A stretch of DNA of 37,117 bases from a virus: IMG/VR virus record IMGVR_UViG_3300042476_000424, positions 1-37,117 of that record. The stretch is one strand, 5' to 3'. Under the pieces are notes generated by a model. The model saw nothing but the letters and a program-made list of their open reading frames with translations, did no database searches and was not told the origin of the DNA. Positions 8,420 through 17,352 of this stretch are shown here, piece by piece (within the stretch, counting starts at the first letter, position 1; every line of letters begins with the position of its first letter). A program made the translations under genes and the position numbers.

Positions 8420-8780
8420 ACTTAATTGCCTTATCTGGATCTTGCTCTAAGATAATATCTGAATTGAATGGTCTGCACAGTGGCTTGCCTGACGTTGATA
8501 TACCAACATATGACCAGTCTGACTCGTCTTCAATCATAAAAAACAAAGAACCCACATAAGAGGATGATTGCATGAGATCCCTGATAGTTTTTGGATCATA
8601 CTCACGATGCTTAAAGGCAAATGTCTCAATTAATGCTGGAACGATATAGACAGGTACTTGGCGCATTGAGAACAGAAAATATCTGATCTCTGTTGATGTT
8701 GTTTGAAAGCTAGTTAAAAGCTCCGAAACTTGGTTTGGATTTTCTTGAATTTCTTTTGCTAGATGGTGAAGCGTTTTCAT
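8409..8780 (-). CDS. Unknown protein in recombination operon
   Basis: 123 residues from ATG 8780, chosen because AAAGGGG lies just upstream. The longer frame to 8879 lacks a ribosome-binding site and would overlap the exonuclease more deeply. It still overlaps the exonuclease gene by 71 bases. Mixed alpha/beta composition with a helical N-terminus (KTLHHLAKEIQENPNQVSEL) and a C-terminal beta stretch (SLFFMIEDESDWSYVGIS). No motif recognised. Confidence 0.6.
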   Translation of the reverse strand: MKTLHHLAKEIQENPNQVSELLTSFQTTSTEIRYFLFSMRQVPVYIVPALIETFAFKHREYDPKTIRDLMQSSSYVGSLFFMIEDESDWSYVGISTSGKPLCRPFNSDIILEQDPDKAIKYVF

Positions 8781-9357
8781 CAATACCCCTTTCGTAGTTA
8801 TAAATTTCTTCCCTACTTGTATGCGGAAGAAGTTGTTTAATAATCTCAACTGTGGCCCGACAATCTGATTCAGCATCATGATGAGTTAATCGAATCCCAA
8901 GTTGTTTGCAAATATTATCGAGCGAATACCCATCAAATGTAAAGCGATTCTGTGTCTTAGCAAGTGAATGACTTGAATATGGTTTAAGCTTATTGATTGT
9001 CCAATAAGCCGCATCACCCATGTTAAGCATGTTCATTCTAAGTACCGCATAGTCATAAGGGACGATCTTCCCATACATCTTAGAGTTTGAATGACACCAA
9101 ATCTCAGATGCGCCGGATAAGTTAATCCAATCGACTAAACTCTGATAAACTTCACTAAACTTCTTATACTTTGATGCCTGTCTTCGAGTGATTCCATGAA
9201 TTTCCTGTGCTTCATCTGACCACTTAAATGGGTTGCATTGTATCAACCTAGTATCAATCACGTTAAACTTATCATCTAAGAGGCAAAAGAATCCTGTGAT
9301 AATCTCAGCATCAAAAACATTCAGACTCGTAGTTTCTAGGTCAGTTACGAGGATCAA
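8710..9357 (-). CDS. DEDDh 3'-5' exonuclease (DnaQ-like)
   Basis: 215 residues. The three exonuclease motifs are present: ExoI DLETT (D6, E8), ExoII around YDYAVL (D102), and ExoIII HDAESD (H160, D165), which places it in the DEDDh/DnaQ (Pol III epsilon-like) superfamily. EIHGIT at 52-57 is also typical. The last 25 residues are basic and serine-rich, possibly for DNA binding. It lies directly downstream of ssb with a 4-base overlap. Since no DNA polymerase is visible in the genome, a role in recombination or end processing is more likely than proofreading for a phage polymerase. Confidence 0.87.
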   Translation of the reverse strand: MILVTDLETTSLNVFDAEIITGFFCLLDDKFNVIDTRLIQCNPFKWSDEAQEIHGITRRQASKYKKFSEVYQSLVDWINLSGASEIWCHSNSKMYGKIVPYDYAVLRMNMLNMGDAAYWTINKLKPYSSHSLAKTQNRFTFDGYSLDNICKQLGIRLTHHDAESDCRATVEIIKQLLPHTSREEIYNYERGIDENASPSSKRNSRKSKPSFGAFN

Positions 9358-10850: not shown

Positions 10851-10933
10851 TTATTACCTCATATATGATTAATAAGTCAGCAAAGCATGATTAAAACATC
10901 ATAAATGACAAGTAAATACGTAATTTTTACACC

Positions 10934-10962
10934 TTTACATTAATTAGCCCATATTTTATAAG
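10934..10962 (+). promoter_or_regulatory. Sigma70-type rightward promoter
   Basis: TTTACA at 10934-10939 (five of six matches to TTGACA), a 17-base spacer, and TATAAG at 10957-10962 (five of six to TATAAT). Transcription would start near 10969, some ten bases before the pseudoknot leader and about 120 bases before the replisome-organiser gene. Confidence 0.6.
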
Positions 10963-10979
10963 TTATTTATCTAAAGCGA

Positions 10980-11067
10980 CTGCACCGCTAAAAAATTATT
11001 CATAATGATGGGAAACCATCTTCCTCTCTACTTGGGTGCAGCTTTCCGAAATGATTGCCAGGTAGAG
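10980..11067 (+). ncRNA. Candidate H-type pseudoknot leader RNA (cis-regulatory)
   Basis: Three pairings are readable. Stem S1: CTGCAC at 10980-10985 with GTGCAG at 11036-11041. Stem S2: ten pairs, CTCTACTTGG at 11026-11035 with CCAGGTAGAG at 11058-11067, including one G-U. Their order is S1a, S2a, S1b, S2b with no base between S2a and S1b, which is a classical coaxially stacked H-type pseudoknot. Loop 1 carries a small hairpin, GATGG-GAAA-CCATC (11007-11020), capped by a GNRA tetraloop. The RNA ends about 20 bases before the ATG at 11089. I do not match it to a riboswitch class I know. Confidence 0.55.
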
Positions 11068-11088
11068 TTTTATCTTTAGAGGTGATCT

Positions 11089-11592
11089 ATGGCATCGGGG
11101 AAAAAGAATTATTTCAGGCATTCATTTTTTGCCAGGAATGATGACTTTGTAATTCTGCTTATTGATGAACTGGGCTATCAGGGCTACTTTTTATGGTTTG
11201 CATTGCTTGAAGTATGCGGAGAAATTGCGGCTGACAGCTACCCAGAAACTTTCAAAATTCACAACTCCAGACTGCTCAGGAGTTTAAGATGTAGACAGGA
11301 GAAGTTAGACTCGTTCTTAACTCTAGCTAAGCTGGAGTCTAGGTTGAGTTGGACTAGAGTTGAAAATAACCATTTTATCCAAATACATAACTTCCGGAAA
11401 TATTTAGGAAAGTATGAAAATTTGAACGATTCAAATTCTCCTAATAAAAGAAAAGAAAATAAAATAAAAGAAAAGGAAATAGAAAACACAGAAATCGGGG
11501 TCGATTTTAATTTTGATTTAGGGGAAGAAAGCGGGATCAGGAACCCAAAAAACAGACTTGGAATGAGAAGGCCAACTTTTAATATTTCATGA
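11089..11592 (+). CDS. Phage replisome organiser-like protein (N-terminal domain type)
   Basis: 167 residues with an AGAGGTGAT ribosome-binding site. The N-terminus (KNYFRHSFFARNDDFVILLI, then ELGYQGYFLWFALLEVCGE) matches the pattern of phage replisome-organiser / DnaD-like initiator N-terminal winged-helix domains, continuing with LLRSLRCRQEKLDSFL and a final IHNFRKYLGKYEN. A lysine-rich linker follows (KRKENKIKEKEIE) and a short basic tail. Such proteins bind the phage origin and help load the host helicase. It is the first rightward gene, behind the promoter and leader RNA. Confidence 0.75.
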   Translation: MASGKKNYFRHSFFARNDDFVILLIDELGYQGYFLWFALLEVCGEIAADSYPETFKIHNSRLLRSLRCRQEKLDSFLTLAKLESRLSWTRVENNHFIQIHNFRKYLGKYENLNDSNSPNKRKENKIKEKEIENTEIGVDFNFDLGEESGIRNPKNRLGMRRPTFNIS

Positions 11593-11629: not shown

Positions 11630-12601
11630 ATGGAAAAGGTTACGTTCCATGACTTGGTTTCAAAGCTGAAAGAACTTGCTCATGAGCTTGGAAGAACACC
11701 TACCTTAAGAGACTTCGTTCATACTGGCATTTCTAAAAGACAAATAGATAAATATAAATATTCTAAGATTGTAGAAGCTGCTGGTTTAGAACAGAATCCA
11801 TCACCCCATACAAGTGAAGCAGTCCAAGTAATAACAGGAGCTCCAAAGGTTCTTATCTTTGACTTAGAAGTTGCCCCTGCCATTGCCTACACTTACAACT
11901 TTAGAGAAGCATTTATAAATCCAGAAAACATTATTCAGATGCCATACATTCTATCCTATGCAGCAAAGTGGCTTGATAGTGATGAGATCTTTTATGGCGA
12001 CACCAGGAACACACCTAAAAACGATAAGCATTTACTTGATGAGCTTGGAGAGTTAATTAATGAGGCCCATTGGGTAGTCGGGCATAATATGAAGAAATTT
12101 GATTTACCTACAGCTAAGGGAAGGATGATTATTGAGGAAATGCTGCCAGTAAAGGACATCGCTGTATTTGACACCTTCAAAATAGCATTTAAACACTTTA
12201 AATTTCCATTTTATAAGCTAGGGGAGCTTGCCAAGTACCTTAAGTGTGAAAAAGAGAAATTGAGCCATTCTCGCTTCCCTGGGACGTCATTGTTCACAGA
12301 GGCCGATAAAGGAAACCCAGAGGCGTTCATTGAAATGGAAGAATACTGCAAAATGGACGTCATCGTAACTGAAGAGGTATTTAAAAAGCTAATGCCATGG
12401 GAGCCGTCAATAAACTTTGGATCTAATTTCCAGAAAGCTATATGTGTCTGCGGCGGTGAAAAATTCTACAAAAATGGCATTAAATATCTTAAATCTGGAG
12501 CGTTTCAGATATGGCGGTGCGTGAATAAAAATTGTGGTAAACACTTTGTCGGTAAAGATAATTTGTTGCATAAAGACATTAGAAAGCAATTATTGAAATA
12601 G
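11630..12601 (+). CDS. DEDDy-type 3'-5' exonuclease with HNH-associated repeat and zinc ribbon
   Basis: 323 residues. Residues 8-52 form a homing-endonuclease-associated repeat (LKELAHELGRTPTLRDF..SKIVEAAGL), a DNA-binding element. Residues 73-256 are an RNase H-like exonuclease: ExoI DLE at 78-80, ExoII GHNMKKFD (D158), ExoIII YCKMD (Y239, D243), i.e. the DEDDy arrangement. Residues 270-305 are a zinc ribbon with C272/C274 and C297/C302. I know this core from phage exonucleases and polB-like exonuclease domains; the flanking DNA-binding modules on both sides are notable. There is no good ribosome-binding site upstream of the chosen ATG. Confidence 0.8.
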   Translation: MEKVTFHDLVSKLKELAHELGRTPTLRDFVHTGISKRQIDKYKYSKIVEAAGLEQNPSPHTSEAVQVITGAPKVLIFDLEVAPAIAYTYNFREAFINPENIIQMPYILSYAAKWLDSDEIFYGDTRNTPKNDKHLLDELGELINEAHWVVGHNMKKFDLPTAKGRMIIEEMLPVKDIAVFDTFKIAFKHFKFPFYKLGELAKYLKCEKEKLSHSRFPGTSLFTEADKGNPEAFIEMEEYCKMDVIVTEEVFKKLMPWEPSINFGSNFQKAICVCGGEKFYKNGIKYLKSGAFQIWRCVNKNCGKHFVGKDNLLHKDIRKQLLK

Positions 12602-14981: not shown

Positions 14982-15045
14982 TATTTCAAAACCATAGAAT
15001 TAAAAAATTAAAATGATATAAATGGGAAAAAGCGAGGTTATATCT

Positions 15046-15720
15046 ATGAATTCAATAAATGATTTAATAATAGAAATTAGTTTAATTGAAGAGGTTGAAA
15101 AGAAAATAGAAATAATAAATCTGATAAAACAAAAACTTCATGAAATAAGCCCGTTTAAGCAAGAACCAGTTGATTGTGTAATTTGGGTGAAAAACTCAAG
15201 TGTTTCGGCAAACGAATACAATCCAAATAGTGTAGCACCACCAGAAATGAAACTCCTTGAGCATTCAATTATAGAGGATGGGTATACTCAGCCAATTGTT
15301 ACTTTTCCAAAAGGTGAAGGCTACGAGGTTATTGACGGATTTCATAGATCAAGAGTTGGTAAAGAATCTGAAGATGTTAAAAAAAGGGTTTTGGGCTATG
15401 TTCCAGTGGTTCGCATTAGAGAGTCTCAGGAAGACTTGAACCACAGAATGGCCTCAACGATAAGGCACAACAGAGCAAGAGGTAAGCACAAAGTAGAGGC
15501 GATGTCAGAGATTGTGATTGAATTAAAAAGAAGGAATTGGTCTGACTCTAAGATTGCTAAAAACCTGGGAATGGATGAAGACGAAGTTCTTAGGCTTTGC
15601 CAGATAACTGGAATGGCAGAACTTTTTGCTGATTCTGATTTTTCAAAAAGCTGGGACATTGGATTTGAAGAGACTCTTGAGGATTTCAACTTTGAGGAGG
15701 AGCTAGATGCAGAAAATTAA
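15046..15720 (+). CDS. ParB-like protein (IbrB/YbdM-type)
   Basis: 224 residues from ATG 15046, with GCGAGG eight bases upstream; ATG 15022 gives eight more residues but lacks such a site. An N-terminal helical region is followed by a ParB/sulfiredoxin-like domain: MKLLEHSIIEDGYTQPIV, then GYEVIDGFHRSRVG, then VPVVRI and LNHRMASTIRHNRARG. A helix-turn-helix follows (WSDSKIAKNLGMDEDEVLRL), then an acidic tail. ParB-like proteins of this type are encoded beside PAPS-reductase-like proteins (IbrA/IbrB pairs) in enterobacteria and phages. The partner lies one gene downstream. Confidence 0.8.
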   Translation: MNSINDLIIEISLIEEVEKKIEIINLIKQKLHEISPFKQEPVDCVIWVKNSSVSANEYNPNSVAPPEMKLLEHSIIEDGYTQPIVTFPKGEGYEVIDGFHRSRVGKESEDVKKRVLGYVPVVRIRESQEDLNHRMASTIRHNRARGKHKVEAMSEIVIELKRRNWSDSKIAKNLGMDEDEVLRLCQITGMAELFADSDFSKSWDIGFEETLEDFNFEEELDAEN

Positions 15721-16135
15721 AAGAATATATCACACATGGGACAAATGGGAATGTTTTCCAGCGGGATTCTATGAAAATAGCTTAAAAGGTAAAAACAAAG
15801 AAGAATGTGAGCAATTTTATGCAAACTTTTTAGCTGACTTACCAAGATTTGAAACTTCTTTAATTGGAGTAATTTCTGAATGGAAAAACTCATGCGAACA
15901 TTATCTTACGAACGAAAAGATGAACAGAATTGCATGGCTAGGGCAAGCATCAGTTTGTTTAGACTCTGGAATACCATCATGCTTTCGTTCTGGGTATTTT
16001 AAATTAACGCAACAACAAAGAGACTGTGCCGATAATCTTGCCTTGAAATATTTAAATATTTGGCTTACTAACAACAATTATCAAACAACAAACTTAGAGG
16101 GTGCCGGAGTTTCAGCCCAGGCAAATATTTACTAA
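15707..16135 (+). CDS. Conserved unknown protein between ParB-like and PAPS-reductase-like genes
   Basis: 142 residues with a strong GAGGAGGAG ribosome-binding site inside the end of the ParB gene. N-terminus YHTWDKWECFPAGFYEN, then NRIAWLGQASVCLDSGIPSC and RSGYFKLTQQQRDCADNLALKYLNIW. I recall similar proteins next to PAPS-reductase-like genes in other phages, so it is likely a third member of the same system. It carries six cysteines; no known catalytic motif. Its stop overlaps the next start by one base. Confidence 0.7.
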   Translation: MQKIKRIYHTWDKWECFPAGFYENSLKGKNKEECEQFYANFLADLPRFETSLIGVISEWKNSCEHYLTNEKMNRIAWLGQASVCLDSGIPSCFRSGYFKLTQQQRDCADNLALKYLNIWLTNNNYQTTNLEGAGVSAQANIY

Positions 16136-17352
16136 TGGGATCAAAAATTTACCGTGAAGATACAGTTTTAATTGCCTCTCAAAAAAGGATTAATCATGTT
16201 TTTGATTCTTTTGAAAAAATAGTTGTGAGCTTTTCTGGAGGGAAAGACAGTTCTGTCATGCTACATCTAATGGCGGACGAGGCTAGAAAAAGAAACAGAA
16301 AAATTGCCGTAATGATTATTGACCTAGAGGCGCAGTACAAGCAAACCATTGAACATCTTTCACAGATGCTTGAGTTTTATTCAGACATTATTGAACCATT
16401 TTGGATATGCCTTCCCATGAGTTTAAGAAATGCCTCAAGTAACTTTGAACCACGCTGGATATGTTGGGATGAAGAAAAGAGATCTGTTTGGGTCAGGGAG
16501 TTCCCAGAAACGTGCATAAAAGATCTTAACTATTTTCCATTTTTCCAAAAGGGCATGGAGTTTGAGGAGTTTATTGTTTTGTTTGCTGAGTGGTATGGGA
16601 AAGGAAAGCTTACTGCAACTATGGTTGGAATTAGAGCTGATGAAAGTTTAAATAGATATCGAACGGTAGCATCTAAGTCTTATCTTCGCAGAAAAGAAAT
16701 GTTTCAAAATCTTCCATGGACTACAAGGGTTATTGATAATGTCTATAACTGTTACCCAATATACGATTGGAAAACTTCAGATATTTGGGTTTATAAAAGA
16801 ATCACTAAAGATAGGCCACACAATAAAATATATGATCTAATGCACCAGGCAGGTGTCTCTCCTTCTCAACAAAGACTATGTCAACCATACGGTGATGATC
16901 AAAGAAGGGGTCTATGGTTGTATCATTTATTGGAACCAGAAACATGGTTTAAGGTGGTAGCAAGAGTTTCAGGGGCGAATGGTATGGCACTCTACGTAGA
17001 AGAAAATGGAAATATTACAGGTTACAATAAAATAAAAAAACCAGAAGGACACACTTACAAGAGTTTTTGTCACCTTTTGCTCACTACAATGCCAAAAAAA
17101 TCAAGAGACCACTTCTTAAAAAGATTCAGGACATTTGTTATTGGTTGGAGGAAAAGGGGGTACAATGATGATATACCAGATGAGGCACCATATGTTCTTG
17201 AATCAAAACACTGGGCACCATCTTATAGAAGATTATGCAAATGCCTATTAAGAAATGACTACTGGTGCAAAGGCTTAGGTTTAACACAACCAAAGTCTGA
17301 AGCATATGGTAGGTATCTTGACATTAAAAAAGAAAAATTGACAACCATGTAA
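16135..17352 (+). CDS. PAPS-reductase-like ATP pyrophosphatase (IbrA/YbdN-type)
   Basis: 405 residues. The PP-loop SFSGGKDSS at 32-40 is that of the PAPS reductase / N-type ATP pyrophosphatase superfamily. VGIRADESLNRYRT and YPIYDWKTSDIW are typical of the DUF3440-containing IbrA/YbdN group, and the cysteine-rich C-terminus (RRLCKCLLRNDYWCKG) fits. It probably adenylates a substrate; the substrate is unknown. IbrA-IbrB is known as a regulatory pair in pathogenic E. coli, while relatives such as DndC act in DNA sulfur modification. Which, if either, applies here is open. Confidence 0.85.
   Translation: MGSKIYREDTVLIASQKRINHVFDSFEKIVVSFSGGKDSSVMLHLMADEARKRNRKIAVMIIDLEAQYKQTIEHLSQMLEFYSDIIEPFWICLPMSLRNASSNFEPRWICWDEEKRSVWVREFPETCIKDLNYFPFFQKGMEFEEFIVLFAEWYGKGKLTATMVGIRADESLNRYRTVASKSYLRRKEMFQNLPWTTRVIDNVYNCYPIYDWKTSDIWVYKRITKDRPHNKIYDLMHQAGVSPSQQRLCQPYGDDQRRGLWLYHLLEPETWFKVVARVSGANGMALYVEENGNITGYNKIKKPEGHTYKSFCHLLLTTMPKKSRDHFLKRFRTFVIGWRKRGYNDDIPDEAPYVLESKHWAPSYRRLCKCLLRNDYWCKGLGLTQPKSEAYGRYLDIKKEKLTTM

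Follow-up and report, generated by a model that had tools for sequence, protein, structure and literature searches.

A kissing-loop pseudoknot kept by matched mutations in the leader of a putative phage replication initiator gene

The locus and the architecture of the leader

The window analysed here is the whole of the 37-kb virus record IMGVR_UViG_3300042476_000424 from IMG/VR (37,117 nt), in which a non-coding leader sits between two divergent gene blocks. The leftward genes include those of an Erf-like annealing protein and an SSB. The first rightward gene, rep, starts at 11089 and is followed by the gene of a DNA polymerase exonuclease subunit. The Rep protein weakly matches the replication initiation protein of PHROG 2562 (E 4e-4), and its relatives in the loci L014 and L011 pass the Pfam model PF14297 (Lin1244_N). 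Matches to DNA polymerase exonuclease-subunit families occur in two separate genes of the window, one per early operon (8710-9357, minus; 11630-12601, plus). Further along, a phosphoadenosine phosphosulfate reductase-like gene (16135-17352) lies next to a ParB-like gene (15022-15720).

The leader is preceded by a sigma-70-like promoter with a 17-nt spacer, from which the RNA would be expected to start at about 10969, and a promoter-like region is found at the corresponding place in the homologues. The consensus scanner instead lists TTTACA at 10926 with CATATT, which scores 9/12 and is no better than its shuffles; it demands a T at the last position and hence passes over TATAAG. An earlier reading of the DNA, made from the letters alone and referred to here as the sequence-only reading, had called the promoter good, which we soften to plausible, as judged by eye. 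On the minus strand, a promoter-like site at 11135-11108 is weak and no better than shuffles. The features of the leader region are as follows.

10934..10962 (+): putative sigma-70-like promoter, TTTACA (10934-10939), 17 nt, TATAAG (10957-10962), read by eye
10975..10989 (+): P1 hairpin, AGCG[ACTGCAC]CGCT, 7-nt loop; two-sided changes at 4/4 pairs over 7 leaders, 0/2000 shuffles
10980..10985 (+): 5' strand of the kissing helix, CTGCAC, 6 of the 7 loop bases of P1; covariation
11007..11020 (+): P2 hairpin, GATGG-GAAA-CCATC, GNRA tetraloop; hairpin in 7/7 leaders
11026..11035 (+): 5' strand of P3, CTCTACTTGG; covariation
11036..11041 (+): 3' strand of the kissing helix, GTGCAG, stacked directly on P3; covariation
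11042..11057 (+): remainder of the P3 loop; P4 hairpin in L002, L003, L012 and L025, weak in the window
11058..11067 (+): 3' strand of P3, CCAGGTAGAG; covariation
11068..11077 (+): U-rich tract TTTTATCTTT, flush with P3, intrinsic-terminator-like; T count in 7 leaders
11079..11087 (+): Shine-Dalgarno sequence GAGGTGATC, from the sequence
11089..11592 (+): rep, putative replication initiator of the Lin1244_N type, 167 aa; PHROG 2562 and Pfam matches of its relatives

Two interleaved stems of 6 and 10 pairs with no linker between them, and the GATGG-GAAA-CCATC hairpin in the first loop, had been reported by the sequence-only reading and lie exactly where it placed them, at 10980-11067. The 6-pair stem (S1) is the kissing helix and the 10-pair stem (S2) is P3. 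The 4-pair hairpin P1 (10975-10978 with 10986-10989) had been overlooked. Since the 5' strand of the kissing helix is the loop of P1, the leader is a loop-loop (kissing) pseudoknot, a more precise description than the H-type pseudoknot first proposed. The helices follow in the order P1, P2 and P3, with the apical loop of P3 opening with the kissing strand, and the whole element measures about 95 nt. A further stem, P0 (10970-10976 with 11074-11080), was rejected as a conserved part, being clear only in the window and in L014 and overlapping P1. The nested-only fold of the leader gave a z of -1.5, which is uninformative because a pseudoknot cannot be represented in a nested fold.

When P1, the kissing helix and P3 were scored together, the leader reached 51. 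None of 2000 dinucleotide shuffles attained this value, and the second-best site on either strand of the window scored 44. No second copy turned up in this search of both strands, whether behind the leftward promoter or in the rest of the window.

Homologous leaders and covariation

The search of IMG/VR with the Rep protein returned 17 loci, and rep profiles gave largely the same records, so that the set is nearly exhausted. The same architecture was found upstream of rep in six other distinct leaders (L014, L002, L003, L012, L016 and L025), in which all three helices are kept despite the primary sequence being largely lost. P1 occurs as AGCG/CGCT, AACTG/CAGTT, AAACG/CGTTT, GGTG/CACC, ATTGCT/AGCAAT and AGCGA/TCGCT, with a loop of 7 nt (6 nt in L025); the kissing helix is formed by CTGCAC/GTGCAG, TCGCAC/GTGCGA, AACGAC/GTCGTT, CTAGCAA/TTGCTAG or GTCGCT/AGCGAC, and P3 varies likewise. 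In a hand alignment of the seven leaders, 19/19 pairs of P1, the kissing helix and P3 show two-sided compensatory change and none is broken or non-standard; L012 was omitted from the P3 part of this tally because its P3 has bulges. Homologues with compensatory changes were the test that the sequence-only reading had itself proposed, and they uphold both its placement of the element between promoter and ribosome-binding site and selection on the pseudoknot. The wobbles comprise eight U-G pairs, always with the U in the 5' strand and the G in the 3' strand, and no C-A, so that the plus-strand RNA is the selected form.

An alignment of four leaders made without reference to structure gave 98.8% paired cells and two-sided change at 9/20 pairs, as opposed to 30-44% paired when the structure was slid by 1-3 columns as a control. 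A covariance model trained on four leaders ranked L025 and L012 next, weakly (E 0.3-0.6) but at the homologous place. Five leaders score 51-56, with none of 2000 dinucleotide shuffles of each getting there; the scores of L012 and L016 were reached by 13 and 12 of 2000 shuffles, both being under-scored because their P3 stems are bulged or contain several wobbles. The P2 hairpin is present in 7/7 leaders; its GNRA cap, correctly noted for the window, is kept in only 4/6 lineages. Unpaired positions vary freely, and the 3' end of P3 lies 17-22 nt ahead of the start codon in 7/7 leaders. As judged from this comparison, the three helices exist and are selected as plus-strand RNA, conservation extends to the U tract described below and to the distance from the start codon, and the pseudoknotted leader is real, kept by matched mutations in seven related phages.

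L032 (1866-1985, on a contig shared with L013) carries a classical terminator, CCGCCCTCG...CGGGGGCGG TTTTTTTT, with a loop complementary to an upstream hairpin. The leader of L032/L013 is possibly a distant, degenerate relative of the element, and it is counted only as such because its kissing strand overlaps P1. The architecture is absent from the leaders of L011, L023 and L033, with a faint resemblance only in L011. Among 50,697 phage records neither DNA similarity nor a match to the Rep protein was found, and a rep profile gave no confirmed relative across 84,980 genomes. A DNA-pattern scan of IMG/VR for close members returned known records only, together with a GC-rich chance match (L053).

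Exchange of the leader and rep for a larger RNA

Searches with the polymerase exonuclease protein and with a DNA motif led to the related phages L040, L041, L042, L043, L081 and L082, most of which have an Erf-like gene in common. A rep homologue was found in 0/6 of these records, several of which are fragments, and in 8/8 records with the kissing-loop leader or, in L013, its possible variant. In the relatives lacking rep, about 250-450 nt after the same promoter are non-coding. Upstream of this region, L014 is nearly identical to L042/L043 up to about the transcription start, after which the sequences are unrelated, and L002 and L081 are likewise matched up to about +1 and then switch. With the promoter shared and the downstream part switched in two pairs, together with the distribution of rep, the leader and rep behave as one swappable cassette, which appears from these comparisons to be exchanged for another structured RNA.

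This larger RNA of about 230-290 nt lies directly after the early promoter and is common to L040, L041, L081 and L082; its positions, including that in L042, are as follows.

L041, 2655-2885: larger RNA
L040, 2304-2576: larger RNA
L081, 2000-2288: larger RNA
L042, 2684-2960: larger RNA
L082, 11768-12056 (minus): larger RNA

Read by hand, its helices 1 (ACCGCC/GGCGGT), 2 (CTCATTT/AAATGAG) and 3 interleave and show compensated changes, also in L042. These helices come from the hand tally; the automatic pair count, whose columns were misplaced because the alignment was out of register, was set aside. L041, L081 and L082 have the motif TTCTTAGTTTAAAGACTGTG unchanged, and L040 differs from it by one base. 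No Rfam match for the larger RNA was found in L040-L043. In L043, the same slot (95-460) holds a non-coding, apparently structured region of about 350 nt with an MFE z of -1.3.

Attenuation, translational control and other readings of the leader

The leader probably sets how much replication protein is made. For the mode of action we tentatively favour, with a probability of about 0.42, a cis-acting pseudoknotted attenuator of the Rep operon that works co-transcriptionally. The first ~100 nt of the early rightward transcript would fold into the kissing-loop pseudoknot, with the loop of the 5'-terminal P1 pairing with the strand just inside the P3 stem-loop. P1 would fold first, while RNA polymerase leaves the promoter, and the pairing between its loop and that of P3 may set how often transcription terminates at P3 and the U tract, thereby attenuating the operon of the Rep initiator. 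The exposed P1 loop would be a possible contact point for a regulator, which could be Rep itself, another protein or an RNA.

Attenuation is suggested by the sequence that follows P3. The 8 bases after it contain 5-7 T in 7/7 leaders (35/48 T over six lineages), whereas the mean count is 2.5 for the other genes of the window and 2.75 where rep lacks the element. At its base P3 is rich in G and C, the C lying on the 5' side, and the bare P3 hairpins have -14 to -21 kcal/mol. Together with the flush U tract, P3 is laid out like an intrinsic terminator whose loop is large, structured and kissing, placed some 20 nt ahead of the start codon of rep. Also in favour are the covariation with its strand-specific wobbles, the shuffle test, the lack of a conserved unpaired core and the position of the element between promoter and rep. 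The eight T that follow CCGCCCTCG...CGGGGGCGG at the corresponding place in the more distant relative L032 also count for attenuation. Against it, intrinsic terminators usually have shorter loops than that of P3 (about 22 nt), L016 has AATATTTT in place of the flush T run, and U-rich stretches can also aid ribosome binding. A standard intrinsic-terminator scan (loops of 3-8) called none at the leader. An antiterminator pairing that would exclude P3 is not conserved: the pairing of upstream segments with the P3 strands amounts to only -2 to -9 kcal/mol, compared with -13 to -22 kcal/mol for P3 itself. The element would resemble the pT181-type rep attenuators in that an initiator gene has a leader combining a terminator-like hairpin with a U tract; however, those are driven by a countertranscript, whereas the element has no conserved alternative pairing and no known countertranscript.

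Ranked next after attenuation, and in our view possible, is translational control, in which the pseudoknot borders the ribosome-binding site on its upstream side, and translation of rep goes up or down when the pseudoknot folds or when Rep (possible autogenous control) or some other phage protein binds it, on the model of T4 gene 32 or IncI repZ. The constant distance from the end of P3 to the start codon, near the edge of the ribosome footprint, fits this reading, as does an architecture without conserved sequence, which is typical of such operators. In the window, moreover, the predicted nested fold traps the Shine-Dalgarno sequence with CACCGCTAAA, a pairing that P1 and the kissing helix would block. 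However, this trapping is not conserved (only -4.7 kcal/mol in L002, other partners elsewhere), and the U tract is left unexplained. U-rich stretches can also aid ribosome binding.

Both models of translational control share features with the leader. The gene 32 mRNA pseudoknot of T4 and RB69 is an autogenous translational operator in which structure matters more than sequence, and like the leader it lies 5' of the ribosome-binding site in the mRNA of a phage replication protein (PMC535899). The T4 pseudoknot has about 28 nt and is followed by UUAAA repeats, bound cooperatively by gp32, ahead of a gene for a single-stranded DNA-binding protein; the window element, in contrast, has about 95 nt, a kissing loop, a U tract and no UUAAA/UAAA repeat array, and precedes a different gene, that of a putative Lin1244_N-type initiator. 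Work cited in PMC10724649 includes pseudoknots in plasmid rep leaders. In the IncI/IncB/IncL-M leaders (e.g. ColIb-P9 repZ), as in the window, the loop of a hairpin is paired to a remote strand ahead of an initiator gene, and the loop size suits RNA-RNA control. These plasmid pseudoknots work through a leader peptide that is translated and through an antisense RNA. The leaders studied here, in contrast, have no conserved leader ORF and no translated peptide overlapping the structure. A leader-peptide model for the window was rejected, its 24-codon ORF being absent from L014, L002 and other leaders.

It is unlikely that the RNA acts on RNA polymerase or in trans, either as a put-like antiterminator of the early operon or as a small RNA of about 100 nt released at the U tract, with rep merely downstream. 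In line with this, the element starts, at P1, no more than about 6 nt from where the early transcript is predicted to begin, and in the relatives lacking rep a different structured RNA follows the same promoter, so that a structured RNA is the constant part and rep is not. HK022 put, a looser analogue, is likewise a structured RNA close behind an early phage promoter. However, the put RNAs (about 70 nt) share sequence, consist of two plain stem-loops without a kissing helix and occur once in each early operon (PMC9378689), whereas the element has interleaved helices, occupies a single site in the window and is found only together with rep.

A metabolite riboswitch or RNA thermometer is very improbable. 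H-type pseudoknots are aptamers in several riboswitch classes. The ligand-controlled switch considered by the sequence-only reading is nevertheless disfavoured, since unpaired bases are not conserved among the leaders, a pattern that fits an architectural element better than a metabolite sensor. Rfam 15 gave no match at the gathering threshold in the window or the 17 related loci; loose thresholds, applied to the window leader and five homologous loci, gave none either. Least probable of all is that the inverted repeats act in DNA, as an origin or as protein-binding palindromes: the site does lie in the divergent early region beside a replication gene, but the helices interleave and the non-Watson-Crick pairs are all U-G on the plus-strand RNA.

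Since the element fails the defining features of T4 gene 32 and of the plasmid rep leaders and has no Rfam match, it is filed as a member of none of these systems. The general kind, a pseudoknotted leader of a replication gene, is known, and the architecture is distinct. Protein- or RNA-controlled switching of rep expression is likely.

The cassette exchange allows a more speculative and rather improbable reading, in which one early promoter would serve two exchanged cassettes, the kissing-loop RNA with a protein initiator or the pseudoknotted RNA of about 230-290 nt without an initiator gene. The larger RNA may then initiate replication in place of the protein, acting for instance as a structured primer, and the small RNA may belong to that origin machinery instead of being just a regulator of rep. 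With seven sequences, the present analysis extends the short list of RNA elements controlling phage replication genes by a kissing-loop leader that covariation supports, and the cassette exchange poses the testable question whether RNA structures at early phage promoters help to start replication or only regulate it.
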